A DNA stretch of 64,000 nucleotides, from NCBI RefSeq assembly GCF_022458985.1, contig NC_061783.1, positions 3,068,413 to 3,132,412 on the forward strand. Reading direction: 5' to 3'. This DNA comes from Mugil cephalus (taxonomy: Eukaryota; Chordata; Actinopteri; Mugiliformes; Mugilidae). A program made the position numbers and the translations under genes. The notes below the pieces were generated by a model, which made no database searches, had not been told where the DNA came from, and saw only the letters and a program-made list of their open reading frames with translations. Positions 6,600-58,038 of the stretch are shown in pieces (the stretch's first letter is position 1; the number at the start of each line of letters is the position of its first letter).

Positions 6600-9500
6600 A
6601 CTCATTGATTGACTGTTTATGCAACACGCCTTCGTAGCCTCTTCCTCTGCTGCTACTTTGACAGTTCCTCCCAGCACCTCTATGGGTAACACTGCCCCCT
6701 ACTGGCCTTGGCCATCATTAACCTCTCCTACTGAAGCAGTACCAATTCAAACAATTATTACAACCAGATCCTGTCGCTCATCTGGTGTTCTCAAAGCTGC
6801 AAATATTAACAACCTCTTCCATTTCAATTTCAGTGCTACTGCTTCTCCGCCGCTTGGTATTCTGTGTAACCTGGCCCTGCTGAATATGAGGTCTCTCTCA
6901 AATAAGACTTTTATTCTTAATGATTTCATTTCATCCACTCAGCTGGACTTCCTGTTTTTGACAGGAACCTGGTTGAAGCCTGGTGAATACAGTCAGCTTC
7001 TGGAATTGTGTCTCCCTCAAAACGAATTCTATAACTCCCCTTGGCTTTGCGGCCGTGGGCGAGGTCTAGATGTTGTCTATAGAAACTTCCACAAGTGTAT
7101 CCATATTGGTACCAACAGCCATCCTAGTTTTGAGGTCCTCATGTTAAAGTATGGTGGCCCAAGTCCAGTCCTCTTTTTACTGGTGTATCGTCCCCCAGGC
7201 TGGAGGCTACGTTCCTCACTGAGTTTCCTGAGTTTCTGTCCTCACTTATGATGAGCTATGACAGAATTCTGATCTCTGGTGATTTTAATTTTAATGTTGA
7301 TGTTACATCTAACAGCAAAGCCACTGAATTCCTCACCATTATGGATTCCCTCAATTTTGTGCAGTCTGTCTCTGGCCAAACCCATAACCATGTTCATACA
7401 TTAGACTTTGTGTTCAAGCTTGGTCTGAATATTCCCTCTCTAGATATGGAAGACATGGGGATCAGATCATCTGTGCATTGGATTGTCCATCACCTGCTTC
7501 ATTTTATTGGCAAACCTCAGTCATCTGTCTTACACTCTTGCACAATAAACACACACACACACAAATTTGCCGAGGCCTTCGCAGCCTCTTTATCTCACAA
7601 TGTCCTGGCCAGTTCCCCTTATATCAATACTGAGGAGCTTTTAAGCCAGTTCAACTCTACCTGTGCTCTTATTTTAGATGCTGTTTCCGCCCTTAAGACG
7701 AGGAAATCTAAAATTAAAACTCAGCCCTGGCATAATGCTGACAGCCGCGCACTGAGGCAGTCATGTAGGGAAAGCTGAAAGTAGATGGAAAAGCGACAGG
7801 CTACAAGTCTCATACGACATCATGAGGGGCTGTCTTAACACTTACCAGCTGTTAAGGCAGCGAGGACAACATATTTTGCCGACATCATCTCCAGAAACTC
7901 ACACTCCTCAAAATCACAATTCAGAACAATTAACACAACTCTAAACCCTGTTGCTAACCCCTGCCCTGTGCCTCCCACAGTAAGTTGTGAAGATTTCCTA
8001 CATTTCTTCATAAACAAAATTGAGAACCTCTGATCTGCCGTCTCACTTTCAACTTTTGACCCCTCTTCCTTCTGGCCTTGCTCTGCTGTTCTAACTAAGT
8101 TTGAGCCTGTATCCGTCTCTCAGATTGTTGACATTATCTCCCATACTAGGCAAACTACCCGTACCACAAACATTGTTCCCACCCACCTGCTGAGGCAAGT
8201 TTTTAATACCTTAGGTCCCACAGTCTCACTCTTCCTCAACAGTAGCCTGGTTAGTGGTTCTGTTCCATCATGCTTCAAACACGCAGTTGTTCAGCCAATC
8301 ATCAAAAAAAAAAAAAAAAAAAAAACCTAGATCCTGCTGTCCTAAATAATTTTCGGCCAATCTCAAAGCTCCTTTTTCTATCGAAGGTCTTGGAAAAAAC
8401 TGTCTACTCCCAGCTTCTGCCTTTCTTAGTTAAAAACCATATCATGGATAAATTTCAGTCAGGTTTCGGGTTACAGCATAGCACGGACTCAGAACTGCTA
8501 AAAGTCACGAACGACCTGCTGCTCTCCCTCGACTCTGGTAAACCCGCCATATTAATCCCCTTAGACCTCAGCTTGATACTGTCGACCACTCCCTCCTGCT
8601 GAACCGGCTTGAGCATCAGGTCGGTACCCAAGGCAGCACCCTCCAGTGGTTTGCCTCCTACCTTTCAAACTGATCTTTTTCTGTTAAGATTGGTAATCTC
8701 TACTCCTCATCTGCTCCAATCACATGCGGTGTACCCCAAGGCTCCATCTTAGGCCCCATCCTACTTGCCCTATATTTGCTCCCATTAGGCTTCATTTTCC
8801 AAAAGCACAACATCTCATATCATTGCTACACCAATGATACGCAGTTATACCTCCCACTTGAACCTGGTCATAGTAATAACTCCACCTTGGAGTCCATTCT
8901 TGAATGCATCCAAGACGCCAAACTACGGATGGCAAATAACTACCTCCAACTGAATGACGGGAAGACAGAAGTGGTCCTTTTTGCCCCCCCAAACTCCTCT
9001 AAAGGTATAAAAAATCCCTTAGGTCCCCTGTCGCCCAATCTTCACACTCAGGCTAGAAATCTTGGGGTGATCTTTGATCAAGATTTAAAATTCGATAAAC
9101 ACATAAAGTTGTTTTTTTCAACTACGAAATATTGCAAAAACTAAAATTAGTTCTCTCCCTCTGTGACCTTAAAACAGTTACCAACACCTTGATCACCTCT
9201 AGATTAGATTATTGCAACTCACTCTACTTAGGAATCAGCCAGGCATCTCTATCCTACTTGCAGTTGATCCAGGATTGTGCTGCCAGAGTGCTAACAGGCA
9301 CTAGGAGGAGAGAACATATAACACCAATGCTAGCGTCCCTTCACTGACTCTCTGTCAAATCCAGGACAGAGTTTAAGGTTCTTTGTTTTTCAAGCAGTAC
9401 CTTGGCCTAGCCCCCCAATACATCTGCGACCCACTCTCCCCCCTCTCCAACCCAAGATCTCTTAGATCTTCCATTCAGCTGCTCCTGACCGTTCCCCGGT

Positions 9501-16096: not shown

Positions 16097-19000
16097 TCAC
16101 TCTTCGTCCACAGTCTCCCTTTTTGAATCCTCGTCTTTCTGTTCCAGGACCTGAGTGCTGGGGCTGGGTAGGGCTGCCACCTCTGTGCTGGCCAACGAGG
16201 AGGGATCATGTTGGTCGACAATCCTCTGGGAAGGCGTGTCTTCCTGTTACAAACCATACAGAGCATGTATGAGCGAAATATATGGATATTATTATACATC
16301 CTGTTGGGATAAAGGGGCCCCACCTTGGCCTTACAGCAGCTTGGATTGTTTCAGGCCTCAAAGGGTTCCTGTCAGTCTTAAGGCCAGTGAAGCAACTGTC
16401 CAGATTTTGTCTCTGACCTACTTCTTAGTGTTCTTAGGGCCAACATCTGGGCCCGCTTACATCCAGTTGTTTGGAACGTGCCATAACACTAACTGTTACA
16501 CTAAGTCTACACAGAAAATGTAAAAGTTGGCCAGAGTGACTATTAGGACGCCCTCATTTTGTAAGTGCAGAGAGTCCAACACAATAGCACCTATTTACAA
16601 ATACAGTTCTAACCAGGCTAAGTGTGTGTAATCACAGCCTGTTGAGACATACAGGTTTTGATTAAGATAAAATCATCTCTTTTTCATGAGATGCTCGTCC
16701 AACTTTTCCTTATTTGTCCACAAGAATGTGAAATAGAAAACGATATTGATATTGCTGAGATAAGAACCACTCTTGCATTGTTCAAGGCACAAAACAATCA
16801 GCTTCCGTGCTGCATTCAGAAAACGTTGTCACCCAGAGAATGCCAGTATGAAATTAAGGGAACGAATATGTTTAAAATTATAAAGGTTAGGACTCATTTT
16901 CGAAGTCTGTGCATCTCAGTTAAAGGAGTAAACTTGTGGAACAGTCTCTATGACTTCAAATCAAGTACTTACCTACCATCTATAATAAGTATATCATTTC
17001 TGAATCATGTATTTGATCCTCTATCTATGATTTTACGCTCAGATCAAAGCTAAGGAATTTGAAAACGGGGCCCAGTGATTTCTTTTTTTTTTTCTCAGCG
17101 TCAAGTTATTCATCAACTTCCCTATGTTGCTTTTGGAAGACTATTGAGTCAACAAAACCAATAACTCACAAATGTAGGTGTACTGTGTCTGCATTCTGCA
17201 ATGTGTGTGCTAGTGCAAGTGTGCAGTTTTGCGCATGCCGTCTCACTACCATAGGTTACTCAGGGCTTCAGCAAGAATTTTCTTCCCAGTCAGGGATGCT
17301 GGACTCATATTATGCGTGTCAGTGGAGGAACTGCTTAAAAACAAGCTTGTAATCGTAACAGACAGGGCTATTAATATTCACACTGTTGTGTGTGTGTGTT
17401 ACATTAACTCAGACATGTTGACACTCTGAGGCCCAACTACTTTAACAGTAATGTGTTATATTACCTGTTTCTATTTATTGATCCAAGACCTGATTAATAG
17501 TTTTAAAGCAACATGATCGGTGCCAACACATCTTGCTATTATCAGTCTGGTTTTGGATCTTCTTCAGCCCAAGCTGGTAACGTGTCTCTATGCTGACTTA
17601 CTTGCTCTGAGAATCGATGAGTCACCTGTTCCGCAAACTCTTGCATCTCTCCATCCTCTCCGTTTGAGTGGCAGCTTGGACTTGGCACCTCAATTCCATG
17701 GCTTTCTAAAATGGCAGCTTCTGATTGTGTGAAAAAGGGAAGCAAATGTGCATGTAAATCGGTGGGTGTCCATAGACAGAGACGTGGGGAAAAGCCTGTT
17801 TGTCAGCATGTCAAGTCTCACCAATATTCGCTCGTCTCTTCATCTCCTTCCTACGGTTGGCAAACCAGTTGTACACCTTCAAAGCTGTCACACGCTCAAA
17901 CTCAGACAGCTTACAGCCTGAGGAAGGAAACAAAGAAAACAAACAACAGTGATCCTCCAAGCTGCAGAAGCAGACCTCCCTGCGTTTAGCTCCAAGTAAA
18001 AGACACGTCCGAATACAGTCTCAACAGTCACATTTAGAAACGGGATCTTTTTCCAAATCCTGGTGTCTGAAGCAGGGAATTATTCATTCTGTATAAAAAC
18101 AACCTCACTGTGCACCTGAAACTCAACACTAGTGTGAAAATGCTGTAGACTGATAAAATGCTGGTTGAATTATTTGGAAGAACCCATATACTACATACTG
18201 TATATGGGATTAACATAACTCATCAATAAATACCTATCTGTGTGGTCAGATTTACAAGATTTTAAATCTGCAACATACAGTCATTCACTGGAAGAATTCT
18301 CTAACTGTGTTTGAGAAACACTGTAAAAACAAGGTGGAAGTAGATAAATAATGTTTACTGAGAGTTGACTTTCAAAACAACCCTTGGATTCTGGCATGGT
18401 TCAAATCCATATTATATTTAAGAAAAAAGGGTTTTCCAGAATTTATCATGGTGTCTTAATGGAAAATCCCAAAAGGCTGTCCCACTGAAGCTCAGTAGAA
18501 CATTAGATTAAAGCTGTCGTGTGCGTTCATTAGTATAATCAGTATAATCACGTTGTGTTGTGTCTATACTCGTGACTTTAGATCTTGACACAACAAGTGG
18601 AAGGTTTTCCCTTGGATTTTCAGCTCGTACACTGTGTTGAATTAAGGTAGAATGTGCTGATCACAGAGATCCCTCTGATTGGCTGAAGTTTATCTCATGT
18701 TACATTCTCATCACAGACTCTATCACCTGGAATTAATAAGCTGTAGACCAACCGCTCAGCATGATTCAGCTGGTACAGTACAATTCATAGCTAACAATAG
18801 CTCTTCCTGTTTCCCTTTTGAATGACGACTAGACTAATGCTTGTATGGAGACATATTTCCTTTCACACAGGGAGAGAACATACACTGATCAGACATAACA
18901 TTATGACCACCTTCCTCATATTACGTACGTCTCCCTTGTACCTCTAAAACAGTTGTGACTCATCAGAGTTACCAGTTACACTTTTTCTTGTACATTTCCA

Positions 19001-19924
19001 AAGAAAACACTTGAGAAATCAAGTTGAAAACTTGCTTAATAAATGACTGAATTAATCATGAGCGGCTCAAAATAATTATTTGTCAACTGACATATTGATT
19101 TGGCAAACAGATCAACTGTACAGCAGAACGGCGTTTCACTTCAAAGGCTTTATTTCAGCTGTCCTAAGACCTTCCCATCAGGAACCGGCCCTGACACAGT
19201 TAATTAAAGAATGCCTCTTGCTACCTGGTTTCTGGATGACGGAGTTACAGGCGTTGGCGATCTCCTCTCGCTTGGCCTCATCTGGGTACTGGTTCTCCAT
19301 GAAGAAGCTGAAAGAGATGAACGCCCACAGTGTTGGAAACAGTTAAATCATACTGCATCACAGGCTCCGTGTTCATTAGAGGAGGGCACCAGCCAGAGCA
19401 GGGCTAGTTACGCCCTAATTTTACACCTCATCAACTTTTAGTTCACGCATCGAACCACGGGAGGGTAAGAGAAATATTTATACAGTGAAGGAGCATCGGG
19501 GAGGGTCTTCACTGGAAGGCAATGGATCAATGAATCCATCATGAGGATTCATTTGGGCAGCTCAAGCTTTGTACACTAACCGTGTCTTCCTAGGCTTATA
19601 AATATGGAAATGATTTGGTAAAAGCTGCAAGTTTCTATGATTATGAAATAATCGTACAGAGCTGACTCTGACTCTGGTTACACATTGCTTTCAGTGTACT
19701 TAAACAGATACATACAGCAGGTCAGACAAAAAACACAACAACGAGGTGGATGCATACAGACGGTGTGTACAGGACTGTTAAATGCAAGCTAAACTATTTC
19801 TGTGCCTTGTTTTTTTCTGTCCCCGCATGGCTGAAAAAAAAAGTCATTATCTCACATTACAAAACACACAGATATCAATTTCTTCCAGACCTCTTATCCT
19901 CTCACCCTCTGAGTTGCCCTATCA

Positions 19925-19970
<46 letters not shown>

Positions 19971-22900
19971 TTCACCTCTACTGTATCGTCCTTGACTCTC
20001 AACCAGCTCATAAGGATCAGCATTGCGGTAGGATTGCGTAATCCGGGGGCTCTGCTGGTGAGCGTCGTCTGTGTGGTCTTATTACTGTGAGTGCCCAGAC
20101 TGCGCCCTGTACTTACAGCAACCATGTAACAGAGAAATCAATTGCACGCAGCGGGCACTGTGCTCCTCTTTCTCAGCATCCTTCTAGGTTACTGAGAAGA
20201 CTGTCTGGGACAAATATGCTACAGAGATGCAGGGTCACAGTACGCAGAAAGAAAAAAGAAAAGAAAGAAAAACAGCTGCAGCACACACTGAATGGGTTCC
20301 GACCCACACCACCAAAGGCAGGAAGTGACAGCTGCGAGGCAGTGAAGGACACAAACACAACGAAGGTTGTTGAAACATTCACACATGTTAAAACTCACCG
20401 GGGCTGATGAAAGTTTTTCTGTAAACTCCTTATGTATATAGTTCAGTGCAAAATATCAACTAAATGAAAGGGATGAACTGGCCAAGCAGCGTTATGGTCA
20501 TTTTAAAACTAACCTGGTTGAGAGTTTTGACCAAAGTGGTGAGATGTTGGTGCAGTGATTAGCACTGTCGCTTTACCCTCTACAGGATGTAAGTGGTGAC
20601 AGATGATGGGAGGATTTGTATACATTTAGATTTGAGTAACACTGTTTCAGTACAGACAGCTACCACCTGTTGGTAAGTTAGAGCTTTTATCCTTTCAAGC
20701 AGAAGCAGAACATGTGTGCTAGTTGACAGTAGGGAGGCACCGAGTACAACAATCTTAAAAAGGTCATCAGCTTCACATACTTGGTCAAACAGGTAAAAAA
20801 TAACAAAACTTCTCCTGGTTCGGTCAGTGCAATTGGGAGTATAACTCCAAATGTAAAATAAATAAAAAAAGGAGCTGAAATTGGGGTAAAAAACAACAAC
20901 AACAACAACAAAAAGCAATAGCTTAATTAGTTCGGTTGGTAGACCTGGTAATGTTTAGTGTTTAGTGCAAAAAGGAATGAAAAATCCATTACAAAAGTAA
21001 CTGAAAAAAACAAAAGCTTCACTAGCTTGGCCCCAATATGTAAAAAAAATAAATAAATAACAAACCATACACACTAACGGGGCCGATACCAATACCAGAT
21101 TGGTGCATCCCTAGTTTGCAGTCTGCCTCTGTTGCCGCTAGTTCTTTGATTTTAGTAAAGTGTGTCAGGACTTGGTTGGTGACTAATCTGGTTTTAATAT
21201 AATGTTGTCCACACCTCAGTGGACCAGAGCTGTTTCAGAAATCCTAATGACTTGCCATTTCCATCAGCACATGCTCCATTTATTAAACAAATCTGATACA
21301 GCAGCTCACCTCTCCATAATTGATTGGCACTCCTTCCTCCAGGTGAACCTGCTTCCCCTCCGCAGCCTCAGTGGACCGGCGACGATCCCCGCTCTGTCCC
21401 CGGCAATGATCCCCGTCCTCCAGTCAGGCTCCTCCTTCACCAGAGACCGCATTGATAAGGTGGCGCCTGAAGAAGAGATAAGGAGCAGCTATTCGGTAAA
21501 GATTTCTACCAACTTGATTTAGCCTCCAGCTGCCCAATGCACCAGCTAAGTTGGATCTGCAACTGGTTAGTTTGTCGTCTGTAAATTTAAGTGAACTAAG
21601 TTGGCCTTCATCACAGTATTGTCAAAGCAGAGTGGATGGAAAGAAAGACAATACCAACTAGTAACAGAGAGTAGGACATATATAAGAAAGCTGTATGTGA
21701 GGAACAAGGTACTGTACATTATCAGATGTGAACTAACTAATAAAGGTCCAATTAAATCATAAAAATTATGTATTGCTCTGCAGTGATTTGATTTACGATG
21801 GATGTGGCTGCCTCACGCATAAATATGGTCATTCAAATTTAAAGTTTCACAGTGACAGCAGCCAGTGTCCAAAAGCCAGGTGAGAGGATGAGATCTATAA
21901 TGATTTAGAATTGTATGACATTGTTTGACCTTCCTGTCAGGACATACCAACTCCAAACAATACGTTTAGTCAAATGATTGTGCTTTGAGTTGTTTTAAGT
22001 GTCAGCGAATGGAATGTTGAATGGATGTTCAAAAGGTGTTAGAAAAAAACCCAACTGGACTTCAAGAGACTTTAAATGCCTTGTGAATTACCGCGACCTG
22101 GATGACTGAGAACCTTCACAGACATATTGAATGGATGGAAAAATAGACACTAACCCACTCTAACAAGCTTCCTGGCTACTCCAGCAGGCAGTGGTATTTT
22201 TAATTTAGAAATGTGCGTGCTCCCCTGCCATGTTCCAACCAACCTACAACTGAAGTGACACGTAGCTGCTGCATCAGTCTGCTGGTACAATAGCAAGGTC
22301 AAGCGGATATTACTTAATTATAGCATTAGAGGGATAGGAATCCTCCAGTTGATGGCTGCCATCTGAGACAGTTGCAATGCATCCCAAGAAAGAGTGATAG
22401 ATGAGTGGCATGCAGGCCAGCTGATCTGCGGGTGTCTCCTGTGGCAGGCTGCTGAGGCCGGGGCGCGGGGGGCGCGGAGGGCACGGTTACCTGGCTGGAC
22501 CTGGGCAGCCGCTGCAGCAGCAGTGTACCACGGCAGCAAGTGCATCAGCAGCTCTCTCTGCCTGCTCCACGATGGGTTGGGGTTGAGGTTGGTGTTGGGG
22601 TTGGGGAGGCTGCCACTTGCCCCTGCCACTGTCCCGTCTCTGTCCCCTCCCCTGGCCCTGGTCATGGGGCTCACGCTGTGCTGGCTTTCACTCCACCTCA
22701 GCCCTTCAGTCGGGACAAAACCAATAGTCAGGCAGGCCACAGCCGAGGAGTTGTGGCATTAATTGGAGGCTGATACTTTACATTTGCATATGTGTCTCTG
22801 GATTAAGTGACACACTCCTGTAGACCTGCCTTGAACTTTTCAGCAATCAGTCATTTGATGTGTGCTTAGTCGCAAATTTCAGTGTATATGTTTTAGGAGT

Positions 22901-25900
22901 CACTGATTCTTTGGAGATTCATGATGGACAGGTCAATAGGAGCCAATAAGAAGCGAAGCATCGGTGGCAATTTGGATCGGAAACATTGCAGAAAAGGGAG
23001 TTATTGTTAGTATCACTGTTGATAGCTGTTTGTTAGCCATGTAGGAATGAAAACCAGCACCAGAGCGCCTCCAGCATCAGGGCTGAGAACTACAGAGGAG
23101 CTAAAGCAAAGCTTGGGTGGGTCAGCGGGGCAGAAAGAAATAAAGCATTAGGATGGAGGGAGACGGCAGGGACAGCAGATGGTCCTTCAGCGGCTTTGTT
23201 TATTTCATAGGCTAATAACGCAAAACAATGTGACTTTTGGACATGATTTACTATGAATGCATGCTGTTTGACACGAATCAATAAAATCTGTGAGCATCTT
23301 GTGCAGCTACTCGTTTGCCGTGTTGCAGCTGTTTGAACGCATGCTGGATTTCTATCCTAGGACACTGAGAGGTCAGTACAGACCCAAGCTGTTACTGTAG
23401 CCCGTGCAGACAAACCGCATTCACCCACTAAAGTTTCATTTCCTAACCAGAAGCCTTAACATTATTGATTAGAATCTCCTGTGACGGGACTACCTTTATC
23501 ATTTGTCTTTCCTCTGAAATTATAGATTTGTCTCTCGTCCTTCCTCGACTTACAGCCCTTGAGGACCAGCTCGGAGTTAGCGTGAGGACTTGGAGGTGTG
23601 TGAGTTTACCATGCGGGAGGATGGGGTCACAGAGGAGGTAGATGGATGTGAAAAGGGTTAGCAAGCAGTGGTTCACATTCACAACACACACACAATATAT
23701 CCCTTTTTAATACAAGCCTCCCATTATCTAATCTGTAATCTATCATCATTAACCTGACATTCAACCTTGATCTTGATCTTTCTAATTATTCTTTCCGTAG
23801 CTCGATCACCCACGTGAGCGTCTACGTCCCACTTCTCAGCTTTGTTAAAGTCAAATTAGACGGTAGATCTGAAACGTATCCCTCGTACATCCAGCCCTCA
23901 TGCCGTCGCCCGGAGCCTCACCTGGGTTGTTCCTCTCCAGCAGGTACCAGCGGTAGAAGGCTCTGCGTTTGGAGTCGCTCATCTCCAGGCCTTGCTGCAG
24001 CAGCCACTGGGAGATGTAGCTCTGGCTGATGCCTGTGTGCAAGGAGTCCAGACATGTTACTTAAACACGTTGAAGGACCTGATTTATTTCACGGAGCGCC
24101 AGCAGCATGGGTATTATTGAGGTCGGCTGTGTTCCAGCACTGGAATACTACTGTTAAGCTAATGAAGCCATCCCAACATCAATACCTGAATTAATGACAT
24201 GTCATTTAATGGAATACATTTTCAAGGAAGGGGTGGAGGGAAGTTTACTGATGTGAATTTGCATCTATTATTAGTGCACGGCCGCTAACGGGCTCGGCTG
24301 GAAAAATATGTCTTACCTAGGAGAGTTAATCTCAAACCCAAAGACCCTGCAGCACATTTCATGTTTTATTCATAACACAAAAAGCCTGTCCATAAAGAGT
24401 TACTCCACCGTAGGTTGTATGTGACCGTGTTAAACCTTAGACGCCAACTATGATATAGCATGGGCATTTCATCTGCCTGCCTCCACCTCTACCCAACGTC
24501 CACTTTGCTCTTTATCAACCCAAGCACAAAGAGGACCAAACAAAAACACTTTGAAAAATCGCATGTAGATCAAATAAGTTGGAAAACAACAGAAGCAGAA
24601 CCAACTTGAAAATAAATAAAACACACAGACAAATAAATTATCTTGTCAGTCATTGTGACAAGAGAGGCAGGGACTCAGGAACAAGGAGTTCTGATGTTTC
24701 ACTGCATTTCACTAAGCAAAGCTGGGTTTTTAAGTAAGCGTTAGGTGCGTTTCCATTACAGTTTTTCGCTAAATAGATATTTCTGAAAGTACAGTTGCAC
24801 TTTGTACGTGTTTCCATTGAAAGGTGTTTTGCAAATGAGCTGTAACTCTGAGGAAAATGGACTTAAAATGAACTAGTCACATGACCCCGGAGGTCATCTC
24901 CACCGACGCCGGTGATGGGGAAACACCATTATCTGCACTTTTGTGACAAACTTTTATATCAATACATATGAAAAACCACCTCTCATGCTCACCTAATGTG
25001 GCTCAAGTCTACTCCACCAGAATAACGCATTAGGTTTCATCACCTTAAGACCTGCTCGCTATGGACACATGCAGGTCTGAGTGCCACCAGAAAGTGCAGT
25101 ATGCTACACAGTGACAGCAGAGAGATTCAAACAGGCGGAACTGTTTCCTGGACATATTTGTATCTCTGTATTACAGAGTGATGATTTCATCTGTCAGAAC
25201 AGAGCAAAAACTACAATTTTTCACATTTGAGAAATTGGACCTGTGACTATTTAGTATACAAGACACACATCAAAGTGGAGCAAAAAACTATTTGTAAAGA
25301 AGCTTGGCGAAGGCTGTGACTGCAAGCTTCATATTCTCAGGTGGCCTGTACGTACAGAACATTCCTCACAATCTTGTGGAAACAATATCACAGAAACGCC
25401 ATCAGGGAATTTTTCGAACTTCGCACCAACATTCACTTGGACTCAAGAGAGGACTAATTTCATTTTTCAAGTTTACTGTGACCTCACAAAACATGTTATG
25501 GCTATATTAACTCATTTCCACAATGTGTCGAGGGAATGTGTTCAAATTTTGCACAAACATGGAGCAATTTAACACAGATGCCTAAAGGCACGCACACACA
25601 AGAACAAATTAGAAATGATGTGGTGTAAACAGACCATAGAATTTAATAAAATAAATCTGTAGCCATACAAGTAGAAGGTAGCCATGTACCGACTTGGTTG
25701 AGGTTGACTGACATATGACCCAAACACATAACTTCCTAAATGTTTACCATCCATGACTTTGGTTACTACCACCAAATTCACCATGTTGATAGCTTGGAGT
25801 GTTGCTGGTACACAGATGGAGCCGCAGCGACTTTGGCTGTATTTTATTTTCAAACAGACAGCGGAGACTGTCCAACTCTGACTATACACTACCAATATTT

Positions 25901-27759
25901 TTAAATTACACTTCTTCCTGGAATATACAACAGTTACCGAGGCGGCAATAACCTAGAATGTCCACTCACTCTACAGAGTGTTGAGATACAAGCAAATTGC
26001 TTTAATGTGGGCAAGGCTTTATAGGATAATGAAGAAGAGTCAAAGGTCAATTTAGATGTGACATGCTCGTGTTTTTAACACATCTGTTTCATCACAGTCC
26101 TAACAGTCCATATGCTGCTGTAACATGGCAAATTCCTCCAGTGTAGGATAAATTAAGGGATTATTTTATTTTATAGAGTCTGATCAGACGTGGGCGTAAA
26201 CTCCAACTTCACTGTCTGAAGGAGGTATGTGGGGGAGTACTCCACTGAATTCTCATGAATTCTCATGTTAAACAAATAGTTTTACATACGTCTATTTTTG
26301 GCATCTGGTATATTTTTGACTCTAACTTACAAATATGCTTTACAAGACTTAGCAAGTACTTTGTGAACACACTGTACACCATCGGTCTGAGGCTGCTGTC
26401 AGCAAGAGCAAACAAACGATCAAAGTACCGCACACAATGAAACACTTGACAACTTTTTCAGCACTGTGAACATTCATAGGATTGTGGATGACAATGGGAT
26501 TCCCTGGGCAAAAGCACAGATTACTCTGTACTGCTTAAACTGACTTCTGTTTCTACACAAGAACCTAGACCAGCGGTCAGTAAATGTTTCACTTGAAGCT
26601 CCCTTTTCTTTTATTTTCTGTTAAACTGAGTCTTTCATCAGAACCAATTGACTTAGCAGCCAGTTAAGTTTCCCATTGCAATTTAGTTGCCCAGAAACAC
26701 AAGTGATTAGGTCAGGAGGAAGTGGACTAGAGCGAAAAGCCCGAACGTGACTCCCTTGTCCTGCTTTATTCAATCAAGAATCTATTTAGTGTCTGCACTA
26801 AATAATCTATTAGCCAGAATCTAATTAACATTTTCAACCCCTTTACGTCAATACTGTATATAATTGCCCACTAGAGACAGTTTAATAAACGAATGACTTG
26901 GTAATAATGTCAAAGAGAAAGTGGAGTACCTGTGACTTGGCCCACGATCGCCTGAGAGATCCTGCGATTGTTGAGGAAGGTTTTGATCTCTTCTTTCACC
27001 AGGTTGCTGTCTCTCCTGTAAAAGAAGCACAACCCCACCGTGACACAAGAACCATTACACGGTGGTTAAAGCATCCGCCCTTGCTCTGACTAACCTTATT
27101 CACTGATGCTTCTCTCTTTTTTTTTCAGGCCTCCCTAAACACCTGACCTGAATTAACTCCACTCAAATTCTGGAGAATAAGCCTGCGCCTCTGGGGACAG
27201 CAACTGTCATTATCTGATGTTATAATAGCCTCTCATATTCCTTTAGCATTTCTTACCAGCTCATCTTCACCCAACACTAATTCATTCCTCTGGCTCTTTG
27301 ATAACACTAAGCAGGCCCCTCTTCCCTCCGCCTTTCTCACCTCATGTACTCCTCAACCTTCTCCTCCAGGTCCCACTCCTCCTCCCCCATCATGTCGTAG
27401 CTGAACGACCGCTGAACCGCCACGCTGGGAGGGTAGAGGGGCGGAGGCGAGGCCTCGTAGCTGTTGCTGGGGGACAGAGCGGCGCCGTCCAGGCCTGAGG
27501 TCTGCGTGGTAGCGGAGGCAAGGGAGAGCGAGGAGGAGGAGGACGAAGACGAAGACGGGGCTGGAGCGGCGGCGGCCGGGGCGTTGTTGGACGGGGCAGG
27601 GTGAGAGTCACAGTGCGACGGGCGGTGATCGGGGTCGAGTCTCTCCAGGGACTCCAAAGCGTGGATGATCTGAGGTTTGGTCATGCCGGACAGACGCAGG
27701 CGCTGGAGGAGGTCGATCTGTTCGATGGTGTATCGCGGCTCCACCTCACAGCACTCCAT
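16097..27759 (-). CDS. hmbox1: Homeobox-containing protein 1 (HMBOX1/HOT1)
   Basis: This is the atypical homeodomain protein that binds vertebrate TTAGGG telomere repeats and also acts as a transcription factor in the nucleus. Coding exons, 5' to 3' on the minus strand: 27,759-27,341; 27,015-26,930; 24,032-23,922; 21,466-21,310; 19,307-19,225; 17,917-17,822; 17,720-17,602; 16,243-16,097. All junctions are GT-AG and the phases agree, giving 405 residues (human is about 420). The N-terminal HNF1-like dimerisation segment (PRYTIEQIDLLQRL, residues 7-40) is followed by a Ser/Ala-rich linker. The POU-like helices are at 141-206 (ISQAIVGQVTG, SYISQWLLQQG). The atypical homeodomain is at about 240-318, starting RLRRGSRFTWRKE and ending with recognition helix KVYNWFANRRKEMKRRAN. 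The C-terminus is acidic (VDEE). ATG at 27,759 has A at -3 and G at +4. Teleosts carry a and b copies, and I cannot say which this is. Confidence 0.95.
16700..17053 (+). pseudogene. LINE C-terminal fragment in the last hmbox1 intron
   Basis: The plus-strand frame ends with YEIKGTNMFKIIKVRTHFRS and CISVKGVNLWNSL. This is the pattern seen at the extreme C-terminus of CR1/L2/Rex-type LINE proteins, where a basic R-T segment precedes G-x-x-L/I-W-N-S-L. There is no reverse-transcriptase core upstream, so it is a 5'-truncated insertion antisense to hmbox1. Family assignment is tentative. Confidence 0.55.
18891..18970 (+). mobile_element. Truncated copy of the Tc1/mariner-type element
   Basis: The left terminal repeat TACACTGATCAGACATAACA, followed by TTATGACCACCTTCCT, matches the left end of the element at 13,364 and continues for about 80 bp before the similarity stops. 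Only one end is present. It lies in hmbox1 intron 5. Confidence 0.75.
19934..19967. repeat. (CA)n microsatellite
   Basis: About 17 uninterrupted CA units, in an hmbox1 intron. Confidence 0.97.
20538..20585 (+). repeat. tRNA-derived SINE fragment
   Basis: GGTGCAGTGATTAGCACTGTC resembles the start of a common fish tRNA-related repeat (GGTGCAGTGGTTAGCACTGTCGCC), with a box-A-like core. No convincing box B follows, so it is a short remnant. The match is recalled rather than searched. Confidence 0.4.
20730..21113. mobile_element. Non-autonomous hAT-like element (MITE)
   Basis: The left end reads TAGGGAGGCACCGAGT and the right end, reverse-complemented, reads TAGGGATGCACCAATC, a typical hAT terminal repeat. 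The flanking 8-bp sequences GTTGACAG and GTTTGCAG match at 6 of 8 positions, consistent with a decayed 8-bp target-site duplication. The 384-bp interior has no transposase frame. An (AAC)n run lies inside at 20,891-20,911. Confidence 0.7.
22491..22703 (-). CDS. hmbox1: Candidate 71-codon cassette exon of hmbox1
   Basis: Between hmbox1 coding exons 3 and 4 there is a stop-free minus-strand segment. It is flanked by an acceptor (CCCGACTGAAG before 22,703) and a donor (CAG|GTAACC after 22,491). Its length is 213 bp, an exact multiple of three. Its entry and exit phases (2 bases in, 1 base out) match the junction it would interrupt (..NNP-G|ATLSMR..). It would insert 71 residues between the POU-like region and the homeodomain. 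The segment is GC- and CpG-rich compared with the intron around it. It contains a basic Gly/Arg part, an Asn-Pro repeat (PNPNTNLNPNP), a helix-like RQRELLMHLLPWY and an Ala run. I do not know a counterpart in the human protein. Expression is unproven. Confidence 0.5.
24744..24850. repeat. Possible dispersed repeat fragment
   Basis: The stretch has GTTTCCATTACAG and, about 65 bp on, GTTTCCATTGAAAGG. Such GCGTTTCCATT sequences occur in dispersed fish repeats. I could not find paired ends, so it is only a weak call. Confidence 0.25.
25295..25600. repeat. Dispersed fish repeat fragment
   Basis: The segment carries ACTTCGCACCAACATTCACTTGGACTCAAG and then CTGTGACCTCACAAAACATG. This wording recurs in an interspersed fish repeat I remember by sequence, not by name. 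It lies in hmbox1 intron 2. Borders are approximate. Confidence 0.4.
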
Positions 27760-28377
27760 CCTGGCATCTGCATGCACACCACAGAGGGGTACACTTTATC
27801 AAAGCCAACCAACACTGGTGACTTGACTGAATCACAAGACCCAATATGTTAGTCAGTATGAGTGTCACCCTATTAATACACCTAAGAGTGGCATGTCTGT
27901 GATGATTTCTGGGCAGATAAACAGCACCACAAGACTTCACAAAGTGCTATCAAGATAAACAACGCTATATTTATCTCTACTACGCCCCGGCCTTAAATTT
28001 AGATAACACGTGGCAGACATTTTCAGAACCTGCCGCAAACTGATAAAGGATGAAAGGATTATTAATAGATAAAAAAAAGAAAAATCTGCAGCTCAATTTA
28101 AAACATTTCATCTCAAATATGACACTTTTAATGGAGATCTGATAAAAAATGTTCAGTCATGTTAATAGCAAATAACTAAGATCAGTTTATAGAATTGCAA
28201 AACATAGCAGACTGCATTCTCCTCTGAGAACCCGTGGGTCATTCAAGTTTGGCAACCTTTCAAACACTTGGCACAGACACTTGGGGCTAACCTTGCTCTA
28301 TTTGTCCAGGGTGGAATTAAAGTAAGATCACCCTGGCATGCATAACCTGACATCAAGTCCTGTCAGCGGAGTCATAC

Positions 28378-28415: not shown

Positions 28416-28934
28416 TTTTTACTTTACATACCTGGTTGTCCTGCAAGGCTGCAGAGTCTGATCTTAATAATTGTGCAGACTAGAGAAAAGATCACACTGA
28501 GCAATCTGGCATTGACCTTTCATACTTGAAAAGGCAGACACAGTGGGCATTATTTATTTATTTATTTTAACAAATCATGTTGGGGTTATTTTCTACGCAC
28601 GCTTGCGTAACTCCAAAATACACAATGGTGAGCAACAACACAGATAGGTTCACATATAAAAAGTTCAACTTGACAAATGGGATGCATGCCGAATTTACTG
28701 CAGGGGGACAAAGATTTCCAATACAGGTCAAGTTCAATGCTGTCCCGCATGTACCCTTAACGACAAAGTGGGTAAAGTTCACTTGCTGGATTTTTAAATC
28801 GAGTTCTGCCCCAAGTTTGGACAGCAGACTACTTTGGTTTGAGGTATCCCGGGAGGATTGAGTGCGAAAATGAAAGACTCCGAACTAAAGCGAACCCAAA
28901 GAATAAAAACATGTCTCGTGTTTGACTCTCTTAC

Positions 28935-29237
28935 CTGGTGGAGGGGGGGACACGGACAGGCGCCCCGGGAGTGGTTCGGTGCGTGGGGTCGCAGCGGGGA
29001 CACACCACTGTCGCATGGCTCAGCGGGGTTCGGCTCGACTGGACCTCTAGGGGTCAGACGGGAGACTTGCTGCAGTGAGTTGCAGGTTAAACCGCGTCTC
29101 TTAGCATTCTGGCTACCCTACAAACGACAGGCAGCTCGCTAGCGTGCTACACTGGTTAAGCTAGCGCCGTCAACTCTTGTTGGTTGTTTCCTTTGAGCAC
29201 CGCCGATAGCTGCTCTCTCTGCCGTCTCATTAGCCAA
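28935..29237 (-). other. hmbox1: Proximal 5' non-coding exon of hmbox1 (alternative first exon)
   Basis: On the minus strand a GC- and CpG-rich stretch ends with a strong donor, CACCAG|GTAAGA (exon edge 28,935). This lies about 1.2 kb upstream of the acceptor of the first coding exon (27,767). No coding frame continues, so it would be 5' UTR. The upstream edge is unknown; it is limited here by the transposon boundary at 29,238. Confidence 0.5.
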
Positions 29238-32197: not shown

Positions 32198-33119
32198 GCC
32201 TGCAAAGCCATGGTGCAATCATTGTGGGTTACACTGCATCCTTGTTTCAGTCTCTGAACAGCTTCATACTAGTTGCTCAATCTGTAACACTCACTAGACT
32301 TGAGCGCCCCACTTGCATCGTTGCACTTTTGTACCAACTGCTGAGTAATCTAATATAGCTATATTTGATTGCCGGATTGATGCAGACAAGTTCGGACGAA
32401 GCCCAGACTGTATTACACGGTTTGTGTTCCTAACCCTAAGGAGTACTTGATTCTGAATGATGCACTCTCAAGAAGTTATCGGCCACTGCAGACAACGGAC
32501 GGGCCAGCGGGTTTAACTGTGTGGGTCGATGCGTGAGGAAATCATTGAGAACAAGTGCTCTGGTGGAATAAAATGGATAGTTTTTTGACTGAATTAAATG
32601 AATAGATCTCACATCTGTCTGTTGAAAATGAAGAAATGAAAAATTTGGTGCACTTGGTTGCTTTATCTGTTCTTAGGAAACATGCTGGACACCTTGGAAG
32701 AGGGCCCCCTTAGTATTAAGGTCTTATTGTAAGCTAGTAACAACACAACAGCTCTTATTTTTCGGCAATAAACAGATGAAAAATTATTCATACTATGTAG
32801 CATTTCTTCCTAAAGGTTGCCCTAAATATCAGGCACTGTGCTGTTAACTTTATTTTGTGATTCAGTTTCCTGTCTGCCAGTTCCACCTGTGACTGTAGCT
32901 AAAGTATGAGTCTCTGTTTGCTTTCTTCACTAGCTCTCCCTCCCCTTCAACCTGTGCCAAGAAGGCAGCATGATTAAGTACAATATTAAAAAGCCTCTGT
33001 GCCTCACAAGCCTAGTTCAGAGCACACCCAAGCCAACTAGATTTGAGCACACAGCAGAGTGTGCGCCACATTGCGGGGTTGTTTGTGTCCAAGGGGGTCC
33101 AACCTGACAGCTCAACACC

Positions 33120-34034
33120 ATGAACTGGGCCTTCCTCGAGGGGCTCCTCAGCGGGGTCAACAAGTACTCCACTGCGTTTGGTCGCATCTGGCTCGCCATC
33201 GTTTTCATCTTCAGACTTTTGGTCTTTCTGGTGGCCTGCGAGAAGGTCTGGGGGGACGAGCAGAAGGACTTTGACTGCAACACCCGTCAGCCCGGTTGTC
33301 AGAATGTCTGCTACGACCACTACTACCCCATCTCCTACACCAGACTATGGGCTCTCCAGCTGATCTTTGTCACTTGTCCATCCCTCCTCGTGACTCTCCA
33401 TGTGTCCTACAGAAATGACCGGGAGCGCAAACACAAACTGAAGTATGGAGAAGACTGCGTCCCTCTGTATGATAACACCGGGAAGAAACGAGGGGGGCTG
33501 TGGTGGACATACTTCTTCAGTCTGCTGTTCAAGATAACAGTGGACGCCGTGTTTGTCTTCCTGCTTTTCTACATCTACGAAGCCGCCTTTTTCCCTCCAT
33601 TGGTGAAGTGCACTGAAGATCCATGTCCCAATGTGGTGGACTGCTACATTGCTAGGTAAGGGATTCCTTCAAGGTTCTAAATGGTGAAAGATTAAGAAAT
33701 TTCAGTCTCTATAATGTGCCTTATCTTATGTGTGTTTCACAGGCCCACTGAGAAGAAAATATTCACCGTCTTTATGGTGGTGACCAGCTTCGTATGCATA
33801 TTTCTTACCCTTTGCGAGGTCTTCTACCTGTGCGGAAAGAGGTTCTGGGAGTGCTGCTGCGGAGGATCCCGCTCCCTCAGGGGGGACTCCTTCATGATGA
33901 CCAGAACCCCTCTGACTGGGAAGGAAAACTCTGTGTACAACGAGCCCGTCCTGGACAAGAAGCCCAAGGTGGACGACAACATACAATCAAGCAACGAGAC
34001 TTCAGCCCCACCGTACACATTAGTGGTCACCTGA
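33120..34034 (+). CDS. Beta-type connexin, GJB4/GJB3-like, with a coding intron
   Basis: This is a gap-junction hemichannel subunit of the plasma membrane; six subunits make a connexon. Exons 33,120-33,655 and 33,743-34,034 are joined across an 87-bp GT-AG intron, giving 275 residues. The N-terminus [20 protein letters not shown] is typical of beta connexins. Extracellular loop 1 has C53, C60 and C64 in the C-x6-C-x3-C pattern. Loop 2 has C-x4-C-x5-C ([12 protein letters not shown]). Four membrane segments are visible. The intron splits the Arg codon in YIA-R-PTEK, just before the fourth membrane helix; most connexin coding regions are uninterrupted. The cytoplasmic tail is about 70 residues and ends PPYTLVVT. 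It lies 1.7 kb upstream of a second connexin in the same direction, evidently a tandem duplicate pair. The exact fish orthologue name is uncertain. Confidence 0.96.
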
Positions 34035-35405: not shown

Positions 35406-35704
35406 GTAAGTTTTAGTTGTGACTAACTTAAAGTCAGAATTAGGTGTAAATCACTACATTTGGCAGCAGAATGAGCTGGAACTCAAAGTAACTTGCTTTC
35501 CAGCTCCAGCTTAAACTTTCTTAAAGTAAAATATTGTAGAGCTGTTTGCACAAGTGAACCTTTACTTCAGAGTGAACCACTTTACAGAGAGGTGGGAGAA
35601 TATTTCACTCACATATGAATGATTGGATAACTTTATTTGTTGTGTTCTCTGTCCACAGTTTCTTAACATTACCAGGTTAAAAGAAATCAACCAAAGCAGA
35701 ACTC

Positions 35705-36436
35705 ATGGACTGGAAGTTCCTCGAGGGTCTCCTCAGTGGAGTCAACAAATATTCCACTGCCTTCGGACGGATCTGGCTATCAGTGGTCTTCGTCTTCCGG
35801 GTGTTGGTCTTCGTGGTGGCTGCAGAGCGGGTCTGGAGTGACGACCAGGGCAACTTTGACTGCAACACTCGGCAGCCTGGTTGCACCAACATCTGCTACG
35901 ATTACTTCTTCCCCATCTCTCACATTCGCCTCTGGGCCCTCCAGCTCATCTTTGTCACTTGCCCTTCCTTCATGGTGGTGCTGCACGTAGCTTACAGGGA
36001 AGAGCGGGAACGCAAGTACAAGGCCAAGCACGGCGAGAACTGCCGGCTTTACGACAACCCGGGCCAGAAGCACGGTGGGCTGTGGTGGACCTACCTGATG
36101 AGCCTCTTCATCAAAACCAGCGTCGAGGTCACTTTCCTCTACTTGCTCCACTACATCTACGACAGCTTCAAGCTGCCCAGGAAGGTCCAGTGTGATGTCA
36201 GCCCCTGTCCAAATTTGGTGGACTGCTACATAGCCCGACCGACTGAGAAGACCATTTTCACCTACTTTATGGTGGGGGCATCTGTGTTGTGTGTGATACT
36301 CAACATTTGTGAGATTTTCTATCTGATTGCTTCCCGGGTGGTGAATCTCAAGCATCGAGGCATCGTCCACACCACACCTAGGAGGGTCCACCCTGACGTG
36401 GACTGTGATGGCTGCAAGTCCTCTCTTGCATCATAG
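35705..36436 (+). CDS. gjb3: Beta-type connexin, GJB3 (Cx31)-like
   Basis: This is a gap-junction subunit of 243 residues in one uninterrupted coding exon. It begins [20 protein letters not shown] and has the loop-1 cysteines ([16 protein letters not shown]) and loop-2 cysteines ([12 protein letters not shown]) at the canonical spacing. The stretch [20 protein letters not shown] strongly resembles mammalian connexin 31. The intracellular loop is basic ([16 protein letters not shown]). The C-terminal tail is short, about 35 residues, and rich in Arg and His. The coding exon starts after the acceptor at 35,658. It is highly similar to the connexin 1.7 kb upstream but lacks its intron, so the pair are diverged tandem duplicates. 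Fish annotations often call this group Cx35.4-like; the gjb3 symbol is by similarity only. Confidence 0.95.
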
Positions 36437-37683: not shown

Positions 37684-40600
37684 ATGTCCGGTACAGGTAA
37701 TGAACTAGTCCGTGGAGTTCATGTGTTTACAAGTATGTAAAGTGTTCAACAGTGTTCGTTTCAAACTTTCGCGAAGTTTGGTTGGGCGTGGTGTGACACG
37801 GCAGTAGCAGCGTGGAGGTGATAATCATTAGGATAGAAGCAATATTTGTTTTGTGAGTAATTAAATAAAATGTCCTTATGGCTTTCTGCCAAGTTAGAAC
37901 TAAACTGTCAACCCTTTCGTTTGAAAGTCTACAATGATGATGTTCTGATAACTCTGATCTGAATGATTTCAATCTGCAGCCTTTGCCCCTGTGGTTAAAT
38001 TATCCGGCTCAGCAGCTTTGTGGACTGTCACCCCTGCATAAGGGGTTGAGTGGGATTCCCCAAATGTTAGGTCTTGAAATACCTTGTCCTGTCAAGGTGG
38101 GAGAGGTAGCATTTTTTAATGTAGACTTGTCCTCACGTGTCACCTATAACTATAACCACACAAAACACATGAGTAAGGATCAGTTTCATGGTCCGTTCCA
38201 TCAATCAGTTCAGACCCTTATGTTTTGTGAGACCTAACCTTCTTTTCCACATGTGGTGTGAATTGAGAGCATCTTGAAAACTTGTTTATATGGCACATGT
38301 TTGTGCAGTCTACAATGTGGAGCTATGTGCCCGGCAGCTAATCATTAGGATAATATGGAGACTTGTCCTCTGTCTCACACATACACCAGTATCTATTTGC
38401 CTTCTCAAACACAGATCGAGATCAGCATCGTGTGATTGGACACATCAGTTAAGATATGTTACGTTAGTCAAGCCAAGTCAAGTTTGAGACATTTTCTGAC
38501 TATGGCGTGAACTGAATCCTTTTTGTTCCTCTTTATTGGACTTTAAGATGCTGGTTTGTACAGTCTGCACTGTAGCTATGTGCTCAGCAGCTAATCATTA
38601 ACACAGGTGACATATCTGCTGTGGCTTTGACCTGGCTCCCTAGCCTCCGATCAATAGCAGTAGCAACATGGCCGATGTAAGGTTATCTGAAATCACTGAA
38701 ACTCTATGTTGTGGAAGGCTAGCTTGCTTTTCTCCTCCGTCCGTCCTCCCACCCCGCTCTCCTCTCCTCAGGAGTGTGTTGTTCCAGCCTGGAGGAGCCT
38801 AAGGCCCTGATGAAGATGGGTCTGAGCGTGGTCCTCGTCGGTCACGTTAACTTCCTGTTGGGAGCGCTGATGCACGGCGTGGTGCTCAGACACATCAACC
38901 TCCACAAGCAGGCCCGGGCCATGGAGTACGCCATCTCCAACGTGATCGCCCTCACGTCCGGACTAGTGGTGAGTGCACGGCGGACAGATTTTGCGGTAGT
39001 GTCAAGGATGGAAATAGGTGACGTCTCTTTGGAGCTTTTGGGTGTGAGGTTCAACATTCTCTGTGTTACCATTCCAGAAATAAGTCACAAGTCATGGTTC
39101 GCTGCATGTGCATTGTTTTCCTACAGGGCTATGATGCCGTAAGTTCAACACTGTGACAAAAAAGTATGTGAACCCTTTGGAACAACATGTTTTTGTTTTT
39201 GCATAGGCCATAAAATGTTTCGACTATGGACTTAAGCTAACTTTTCATTTCCATTCCACTCCACTGGTCTTTTTGAAGTGGCACTACGTTCCACTGTTAA
39301 TGTGAATATGACAGTACTCAGAATTTGATAAGGATCGTATTCCATTTTGATATTCAGAATGAGGCCCCAGTGGGATATGTGGAATATGCACATGGTTTTA
39401 GATGTAGTCTTTAAATGTCTACAGCGTATGTGTCTCAGTCAAGTTTTTTTTCAGTTTACCACATCCAGATTATTGCCTCTTCCCGCTCAGCGCTCTCTGT
39501 TTTGTACACAAACCAACCAGCCAACAGTTTCTAAGGCTGTGGTAGAAACTCATGTCCAAATGTCACACATTTGTGATGGAAAGGAAAAACACAAGACGCA
39601 GCTCTAACCTATTCTAAATGTTTGTATGGTCGAGCATGACCTAAGTTTTATGTCAGTCTGAGAATGCACCGATCTATGTAAATGGGAATAGGAGTGCAAG
39701 ATAAATTTTTAGTAGACATGTTAATATCCCAGTCAGAAATCTGTCTTTTTTTGAAAAAGGGACAAAAAACTGAATGTTTATAAAAATAGCATCGACAATA
39801 TTTCTGCAATCTGAAATCATTCTCTCGTCCCCTCAATCTGGTTTAACTGTTTACATTAACGCAAAGTGGAATGATCTGATAAGCTGTGTGTGTATACATG
39901 CTTCACGACATTAGTCAGAGTAGAATTTTTTGACATGCGCAGTGTCATCTGCTGCTTTGGACGACCAAATTGTGTGGAACCAGAAACTGCGTCTTCTCTC
40001 GCCAACTTTATTGACCAAGACAGGCCCACATCACTTCCGGCATCATTTATGTTTCCACACAGCTCATTTCAAGCGTTTTGACCATTGAGGCGTCCAATAA
40101 CTATTGACTCTTAAAACACTGATCAAAAAAAAAAAAAAAAAAGAGCGCTCAGCCACAGACTTCTCTAACTCCCAAAAACTCGCCTCACCACCTGACCTTT
40201 CCATATATTTGTCCCCACATATACGTCAAACGTAGGCAGAAAGAATGTCTTCCCATTAGATCAAGCGTTAACATTGTTATTAGGTGCTAGTATTTTTTTC
40301 ACCCTTGAATGATTCGTCAAATGTCTGTACCACCCCTCTGAGTCTGATGCCTTATGATCTGTACAAACACTGAGCTCTATGTTTGCCAATTCTCAACTCC
40401 TGTATCCTGTAGGGGAAGGATGTATTCAGTATGGGAGGAAAAATCAATGATATGTGTATTATTCCTGAAGGTAGATTCAGTTTGAAGCTCTGGCTTGCAG
40501 ACACAAATGCAGATAATTCCAAAGGGTTCACTTTTAGCCATTGTGCAGCTTCCTCTTCTAGAAATGCTACACTAATAGATTGTTTGGGTTTGTGCCAGAA

Positions 40601-43600
40601 AAGATCCTAATTGCTGCGGGAATAAGCCTTTCACGAGGATGCAATGAGATCATGTGTTAAAATGTCCCAACTAAGCCCCTTAAAATTGTGTCAAACATGT
40701 TTGAAACCTGCAAAACAACATCGGCCTTTGTTGGAATCATCGAGACTTTGGGGTCGTCTTGTTAAACCACTTTCCCTCAATGAAGAATAACTGTAAATTC
40801 CCCTATTTAGAAAGGCAGACATAGTTGTATCTTGTAATGATTTTGTACTTTAAGCCTTACAAAACCAACTTTGACACACACGGGTACTTGAAGGCATGTT
40901 TTAAATGCTTTTGTTCTTGGCACCGCTGTGGTGTTGAGTCTGTAAGAGACGCGTATGACATGAAAAAGTGTTGTAGTTTAGTTATAGTTTAGTAGTTTCT
41001 TTTCAGTGTGTTGTCATGGACACACGGTAGCTGATGTGAATGTTTTTTTTTTGTTTCTTCTTTGCAGGGAATTGTTGTTGGGATTCTGGCTATCATACTG
41101 TCTAAGAATAAGAAGAGCAAAGGCCTGGTTAGTATCCCTTCTGCTTTCACTCTCTCCTCTCTGCTTGTCTTGTTGATCTGTTGTCACTGTGCCAAACTGC
41201 CTATTTTTCCTCTCAACATATCCATCTACCCGCGCTGCTCTTTCAGCTTTGTTGCTCTTTCTTCTCAGCTTTCTCGTGACTTAAAAAGCCTGCACGTTGC
41301 CTCAGGTGTCTGGATCCAGCCTCATGGAGCCGGAACAGCCTCTTGTTTGTTAACCCTCTACCTCCGCTCCTATAGTTTGGCATCTCCTCTCTGTTTATTC
41401 AGTCAGCTGTCGGGCTGATCAGACGGGACTGACGAGGCAGTCGGCTGAATGAGTGTGCCGGAGAGCTCGATAAGCCACACCTTGCTCCCTTTGTTAGCAA
41501 GGGCCACTCTGAGACGGGCAGGGCCGAGCTAACACAGACCAGTCTGACTAAACTGTCTTCAGTCAGGCATCTGGAGGCATCTGGAGGGAAACCTGTTGAA
41601 TGAAAACATAGGCCTTTATCGCATGTTTCTGACCTACATCTTCTAATCTCGCTGACAAATTGCAGCACTTATTGTTGTCCTTATCCAGGTCACTCAGTCA
41701 TCTTCATAGTCATAGGTCTAGACAACATGTGTGCTCCATCACATGTGTCATTTATCATTATAAGTAGCAGAATATTTCTGATTGGAGTATAACTGCAGTG
41801 TGTGGTATTGTGACGTTTTTATCAGTCTAACTTCTCAGCACTTCCAGTCATCTCAGTGCTGATTGTGGCCAACTCAAACACAGTCACACACGGTTCAGTT
41901 TTTTTTTTTTTAAAGGTCAATTAATTCCTGAACGCTAACGTGCACTGTGATTTGTATCAAATGGTTCTGTATTTAAACGTCACTTTTCTCACTAATGGTA
42001 CTTTAAAGCACTTTACATGAACTTCACGTTCAGACTCGCAGAGGAATTAGGAACAAAGTCATCCTAGTTTGCAAGATCTATCCATTGCTCTTGGGACCTT
42101 TTCATGTTATTTAAAATGATGCCAGCTATCAGCAACCCTATCTTAATCGCAGCCAAGTGACACTTAAATGTCGTACCAAACACATGTATACAAGGGGGAT
42201 TTAACCAAGACTGGTCAAACCAGCGCAGCAGATATTAGGTAACATTTAACGTCAAAATAAAATCTGGATTAACTTGATTCTGCCCACACTGTGATCAAAA
42301 GTGATTTTCCAAAGCAAAGCAACACATGATGAATATTATTATTATTATTAAGTTGTATTTTATTTTATTTTTTTGCCGCAGCAGACTTTACTTGTAAGAG
42401 TTTTCCAATCTGAACATAAAGAATCTCTCTTCTTTTTCTAGGAAAGTCCTTCCATGAATGCTAAATGCTCATAGATGCTTTCAAATTTCACTCTATGCTG
42501 AAGTAAATCTGTGGAATTGTAAAATGGATTATCCATAAAGCTGCTTTAAAGCGTGTTTTTGATATTAAGTTACTTCTTTATTTCTTCTTTTTTGTTCTCT
42601 TCGTGGTTAAATGTCCCAGTTTCATGCTGCAGCTGTACCATTAAAGCTACTCTATGTGCTCTGACAGTTTAACATTAAGTGTCCCAGAGAAAGTCATGAC
42701 AATAGCAGGGAGAGCTGAAACCCAGCCGTTGCAACACCTGCGCTTTTCCTGCTATGACATGTCAAAATATCTTTTGTTTACTCTGTGTCATTCATTTGTT
42801 TATTCACTTTTGCACACGCCCCACTTTCCCAGATTGAGGCTTCGTCCTGTCGGCCTTCAAGAATTTCTTCCCTGATTATTACTCGTATTACTGATATTAT
42901 TGTCCCTCTCCCTCCCCAGACGTGGTCTCTCTTCTCCATCAGCCTGCTGTCAGCCCTCATGGCGGCAGCTTCGACCATCGGGCTCTTCGTGTCTGCGGTC
43001 AGGGCCATCATTCACGGTGGGCGGAGCCTCTTGACACACTGCCGCTTCCCCGACGCCATCAGCTACTCCAGCGTCACCAACGAGTGTCCCTTTGACCCCA
43101 CGCGCATCTATGTGAGTGCACAACTGCGCACGGCAGATGCTGAGGCGAAAGGCATCGACTGACCTTTTCTGCAGCAGCCAGCTCTTTGTACAGCTGACCG
43201 TTGCCACTGCTGCGTAAACACGAGAGAGCAGGGCGAGGCTACTGTGTTCGTTTTGTGCGTGTACATAAGGGTGGGAGTGGGAGAAGAGGTGGGAAGTTGG
43301 GTGTCTATCTTTTCTGTCACTCAGTCACTTTCACCCTGGTGACAGAAACGCTGACCTGACCCTGACCCCTCCAGGCTGTGTCCTGCTCCAGTGTGCTACA
43401 GATGGACTGTCAGGCCTGCTCAGCCTCACAGCTGCCTCCATGCGCCGGCACCACTGTGGCATTGTTAGCTGACAATTTGTCAGCTGAGTGACCTTTGTCT
43501 TAAGCTGGATTTAGTCATGGCACGGGGGGGTTAATGGCAGAGCCGCTACAGATGCACGCAGCGTATGTTCCGATTTGAGTCGGATTTCAGCTGTTCAGCT

Positions 43601-49373: not shown

Positions 49374-58038
<8,665 letters not shown>

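Follow-up and report, generated by a model that had tools for sequence, protein, structure and literature searches.

The linker variant of HNF1B arises through use of an alternative splice donor and not through a separate exon. In the B variant of this factor, a 26-residue segment lies between POUS and POUH (PMC7940219). For the HMBOX1 family, zebrafish Hmbox1b is reported to be enriched on TTAGGG (PMC11846949), and subtelomeric variant repeats are reported not to be recognised by HOT1, or TTAGGG to be preferred over them (PMC5452029). The HMBOX1 event described in PMC4912780 is an alternative first exon. Among the literature matches listed, no title or abstract opening referred to a linker cassette in HMBOX1, which does not establish its absence from print.

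Here, a stretch of 64,000 nucleotides from Mugil cephalus (the window) was analysed, in which a first-pass annotation had proposed an unrecognised, in-frame cassette exon of 71 codons between the two DNA-binding modules of an hmbox1 gene. The candidate has the features of a borderline exon: its decent donor, exact phase, long open frame and high composition-based coding score stand against an acceptor that is weak, content that stems from a repeat and little coding signal beyond composition.

Results

Gene model and genomic neighbourhood

Seven coding exons of an hmbox1-type gene were placed on the minus strand, using a human HMBOX1 sequence as the query and reading the junctions:

27341..27759, minus strand: first of the coding exons placed within the window (MECCEVEPRYTIEQ...)
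26930..27015, minus strand: exon
23922..24032, minus strand: exon upstream of the candidate, end of the POU-like/HNF-1_N region (...RWYLLERNNPG)
21310..21466, minus strand: exon downstream of the candidate, GATLSMRS... being the start of the homeodomain
19225..19307, minus strand: homeodomain exon
17822..17917, minus strand: homeodomain exon
17626..17720, minus strand: exon past the homeodomain (AAILESHGIEV...), with the GT after EFAEQ as putative 3' limit

The joined product comprises 349 residues without the candidate segment and 420 residues with it, and the gene may continue beyond exon 17720-17626. The identity of the gene, and the presence of a POU-like domain and a homeodomain on either side of the candidate, were borne out by Pfam matches of the 420-residue protein (cassette included) to HNF-1_N (PF04814, E=1.8e-60) and the homeodomain (PF00046, E=1.6e-8), as well as by a match to PDB 4j19 (Homeobox-containing protein 1, E=2.8e-47); PDB 2h8r (HNF1B) was also among the matches. 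At the junction equivalent to 23922/21466, the human HMBOX1 protein reads TNPG-ATLSMR.

Neighbours of the gene are connexins, BCLP-family exons and an EF-hand exon (33108-33968, 35681-36433, 38723-39139, 42758-43159, 44286-44681 and 55509-55790). The BCLP-family exons are TMEM54-type and the EF-hand exon looks like hippocalcin, and this neighbourhood matches human 1p34-35, not the 8p21 region around HMBOX1. Because of this correspondence, the gene may represent an old duplicate lost in mammals and not a direct HMBOX1 orthologue. Upstream of its first coding exon, a minus-strand open interval with good splice-like ends (28935-29117) lies in a GC-rich island (28870-29172, CpG o/e 0.88) and could be a 5' exon or a promoter island; its first 60 residues gave no Pfam match. 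Elsewhere in the window, plus-strand fragments at 8674-9141 and 56772-57176 match reverse transcriptase (PF00078), the latter below the curated cut-off, and are probably retrotransposon remnants.

Anatomy and splice signals of the candidate

The candidate and its putative splice signals are located as follows, a slash marking each proposed junction:

22491..22703, minus strand: candidate (cassette exon or pseudoexon) of 213 bp in phase 1-1, which would add 71 residues (GLRWSESQ...AAAAAAQVQP)
22704..22760, minus strand: putative acceptor region, with a CTGAC branch-point-like site (A at -25) followed by GACTGAAG/GG
22485..22493, minus strand: putative donor CAG/GTAACC, matrix score 7.8

The coordinates, the length, the AG/GT bounds and the open phase-1 frame given by the first-pass annotation all proved exact, and the phase fits on both sides, between exons 24032-23922 and 21466-21310. 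Considered as a coding cassette, the segment is open, phase-symmetric and AG/GT-bounded, with CTGAAG directly before it and GTAACC directly after it. The stop-to-stop frame around it spans 146 codons (22758-22321) and so runs beyond both proposed ends, by 18 codons upstream and 57 downstream. The plus strand is likewise open, with a frame of 131 codons.

Splice sites were scored with approximate vertebrate matrices. On these matrices, the candidate acceptor (AAG, with A at -3) scored 4.1, compared with 5.6-14.7 for the six real hmbox1 acceptors, and pyrimidines accounted for 60% of the 20 bases before its AG, compared with 65-95% in the real acceptors. The candidate donor, at 7.8, was the top donor-like site found in 23900-21467, the seven real donors scoring 4.5-12.1. 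Between 22758 and this donor, the only in-phase acceptors with a positive score were 22703 (4.1) and 22511 (4.4), of which the latter would leave just 21 bp before the donor.

The GC-rich island and its hexamer array

The candidate lies within a compositionally distinct region that harbours a short tandem array:

22322..22782, no strand assigned: GC-rich, CpG-poor island of 461 bp, with the 146-codon minus-strand and 131-codon plus-strand frames
22574..22606, minus strand: CCCAAC hexamer array (plus strand: GGGTTG x 5.5), detected by Tandem Repeats Finder

GC content in the island peaks at 0.70 in 150 bp, and the GC richness ascribed to the candidate was corroborated (0.65-0.67 in 200-bp windows), compared with 0.42 over the whole window. 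At a cut-off of 0.58, 24 islands were listed in the window, four of them within hmbox1 (17626-27797); three of these four cover exons, leaving 22322-22782 as the sole such island in the introns of this gene. Its CpG o/e is 0.33, compared with 0.53-0.73 in the islands that cover e1, e3 and e4, all exons of this gene. The Asn-Pro repeat reported in the first-pass annotation is indeed present in the translation, where it reads out the hexamer array in the DNA.

No sign of a repeat family was seen within the window, where the best blastn match to the island had E=0.087. A search for G-quadruplexes (runs of at least three G, loops of 1-7) returned three sites in the window, none of them in the hexamer array, and an Rfam scan of the whole window yielded no family reaching its gathering score. 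That a telomere-binder gene of the HMBOX1 family should contain an array of TTGGGG-like (GGGTTG) units, read on the plus strand, is probably a coincidence. Autoregulation via these telomere-like repeats (GGGTTG/TTGGGG) was considered; HOT1 is reported not to recognise such variant repeats, or to bind them less well (PMC5452029).

Exon-like score rankings

An exon-like score was calculated as the sum of acceptor, donor and codon scores, the codon term contrasting a human codon table with the intron trinucleotides of this gene. The gene-wide set consisted of 47 rows, namely the frame-compatible symmetric intronic intervals of 30-350 bp (with an acceptor score of 0 or more and a donor score of 2 or more) and the six real internal exons. 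The candidate ranked third of 47 (37.4), amid real exons, with the next intronic interval at 13.0. On acceptor plus donor alone it ranked seventh: at 11.8 it fell short of every real internal exon (the six scored 13.3-24.5) and barely exceeded the intronic interval that came next, at 11.5; its exon-like score is mostly composition.

Among non-overlapping intervals on both strands of the window, the candidate ranked ninth, and all eight intervals above it lie in homology-supported exons (hmbox1, connexin, BCLP and EF-hand). The ranks below it are shared by real exons, intervals lying antisense to exons and unassigned intervals, and rank 16 (score 32.6) went to an interval opposite the candidate on the other strand.

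Chance and composition controls

The reading frame of the candidate had the best codon score among its six frames. Compared with those of its own dinucleotide shuffles that stayed open (1,500 shuffles), its codon score gave P=0.15, in a test that has little power at 213 bp, as e4 and e7, both real exons, fail it too (P=0.13 and P=0.36, respectively). The composition-controlled codon score was -0.345, compared with -0.19 to +0.145 across all seven real exons. An excess of GC3 was observed in the candidate (P=0.003 against shuffles), an excess that real exon e7 does not show; by Fisher's test it gave P=0.006, and P=0.05 without the hexamer array. Read in the same frame, the sequence between the proposed bounds had a GC3 of 0.77, and both flanks had one of 0.61.

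Of the dinucleotide shuffles of the candidate, 19% stayed open in its frame. When 213-bp segments matched for GC were taken from the window (310 in all, overlapping one another and including the real exons and the candidate itself), 64 were open in the frame taken, so that the open frame of the candidate owes much to GC content; 23% of these 64 matched its GC3 excess.

When the 2,455-bp intron was shuffled in 300-bp blocks (n=1,000), a comparable symmetric open phase-1 interval arose in 22.2% of shuffles, and one of at least 200 bp in 1.9%; with a looser donor cut-off, these values were 62.3% (any length) and 6.9% (at least 200 bp), the splice cut-offs having been set post hoc near the candidate's own scores. 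In shuffles restricted to the island (blocks of 461, 231 and 116 bp; n=1,000 each), the total exon score of the candidate was reached in 3.6%, 1.1% and 7.6%, respectively, and that of real exon e2 in 21%, 15% and 37%; real exon e3, as a control for this test, gave P=0.001. The candidate thus exceeds chance somewhat, not overwhelmingly.

Search for relatives of the 71 residues

The 71-residue cassette matched nothing in PDB or Pfam at E up to 10. In phmmer, the POU-domain match to 2h8r (HNF1B) extended about 15 residues into the cassette, and an L-L...P pattern shared with the HNF1B linker insert looked alike by eye. Homology with that insert was nevertheless rejected, as the scores were no better than those of shuffles: local alignment of the cassette with the HNF1B linker/insert gave shuffle P values of 0.33-0.68 in four settings, and between 65 and 125 of the 206 other open frames in the window did as well. 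Searches of viral and prokaryotic contig collections with the homeodomain exons and the cassette returned no confirmed relative, a result that says nothing on fish.

Discussion

On balance, we lean slightly towards the candidate being a pseudoexon, located in the intron between the POU-like and homeodomain exons of hmbox1, within an island that is rich in GC, poor in CpG and carries simple repeats. Under this explanation, the high GC content would suppress stop codons across the island, an open, symmetric interval would happen to be bracketed by an AAG acceptor that arose by chance and a decent CAG/GTAACC donor, and splicing would normally join 24032-23922 straight to 21466-21310, presumably skipping the candidate, to give NNPG-ATLSMR. 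The pseudoexon is favoured because the acceptor lies under all six real acceptors, because the splice-only score is under all real internal exons and because the codon score falls short of those of the seven real exons and is not significant compared with open shuffles. The dependence of the GC3 excess on the hexamer array and the open frames in matched segments point the same way, as do the overrun of the frame at both proposed ends, the open plus strand with its own ranking interval, a CpG o/e that differs from that of the exon islands, and the lack of a Pfam or PDB relative. Against it stand the third and ninth ranks obtained with the codon term, the scarcity of intron shuffles giving a comparable interval of at least 200 bp, the CTGAC at -25 and the higher GC3 inside the bounds than outside, together with the low power of the codon test. 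The weighting also takes it as improbable a priori that any particular intron harbours a coding exon not yet recognised, which is our judgement and was not computed.

The serious rival is a real coding cassette exon, which we hold less likely. Such an exon would be included at a low level or in restricted tissues owing to its weak acceptor, and would add 71 residues to the linker that joins POU-like domain and homeodomain, altering domain spacing or contributing a candidate protein-binding segment (RELLMHLLPWY). It is consistent with the exact 1-1 phase fit over 213 bp, the exon-like scores, the peak of GC3 excess within the proposed bounds and a donor that is the best donor-like site of the intron. 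The six Ala codons of the Ala run are moreover spread over all four third bases, and the superfamily offers a precedent in the POUS-POUH segment of one HNF1B variant (PMC7940219). Against the coding exon stand an acceptor weaker than six out of six real ones, codon usage no better than that of open shuffles and low-complexity content derived from a DNA repeat; the 71 residues are without a known relative in Pfam or PDB, and their similarity to the HNF1B linker/insert is not significant. Quite unlikely, in our estimate, is a third explanation, in which the island is functional yet non-coding, for example as an intronic regulatory element or as a first exon that is non-coding or alternative, and owes its GC content to that role. 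The sharp confinement of GC richness to 461 bp in a window of 42% GC agrees with such a role, as do long frames on both strands, by which no strand is clearly favoured, but the CpG o/e is unlike that of a CpG-island promoter, and the Rfam scan of the whole window gave no family at or above its gathering score.

If the candidate is indeed a pseudoexon, it illustrates that GC-rich intronic islands can yield convincing open cassettes. If instead the exon is used, it would provide a natural isoform pair for testing the effect of POU-like/homeodomain spacing on telomere-repeat binding, and would extend linker splicing to a second HNF1-type factor. By analogy, one might then picture a teleost hmbox1 paralogue with a regulated 71-residue linker cassette, an independent parallel to the HNF1B variant in which splicing tunes telomere or promoter binding; we regard this scenario as unlikely.

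Two known systems come closest to the candidate. The flanking exons described here encode a clear HMBOX1-type protein, as in HMBOX1/HOT1 (PDB 4j19 and 2cuf); the chains of these two structures are without the 71 residues, but both start after the insertion point and are uninformative in this respect. The HNF1B variant, a relative of the hmbox1 protein of the window, resembles the proposed cassette in carrying its extra segment at the same position, between two DNA-binding modules, but differs in that its segment, unlike that of the candidate, is reported in transcripts (PMC7940219), and in that the two linkers share no significant similarity.
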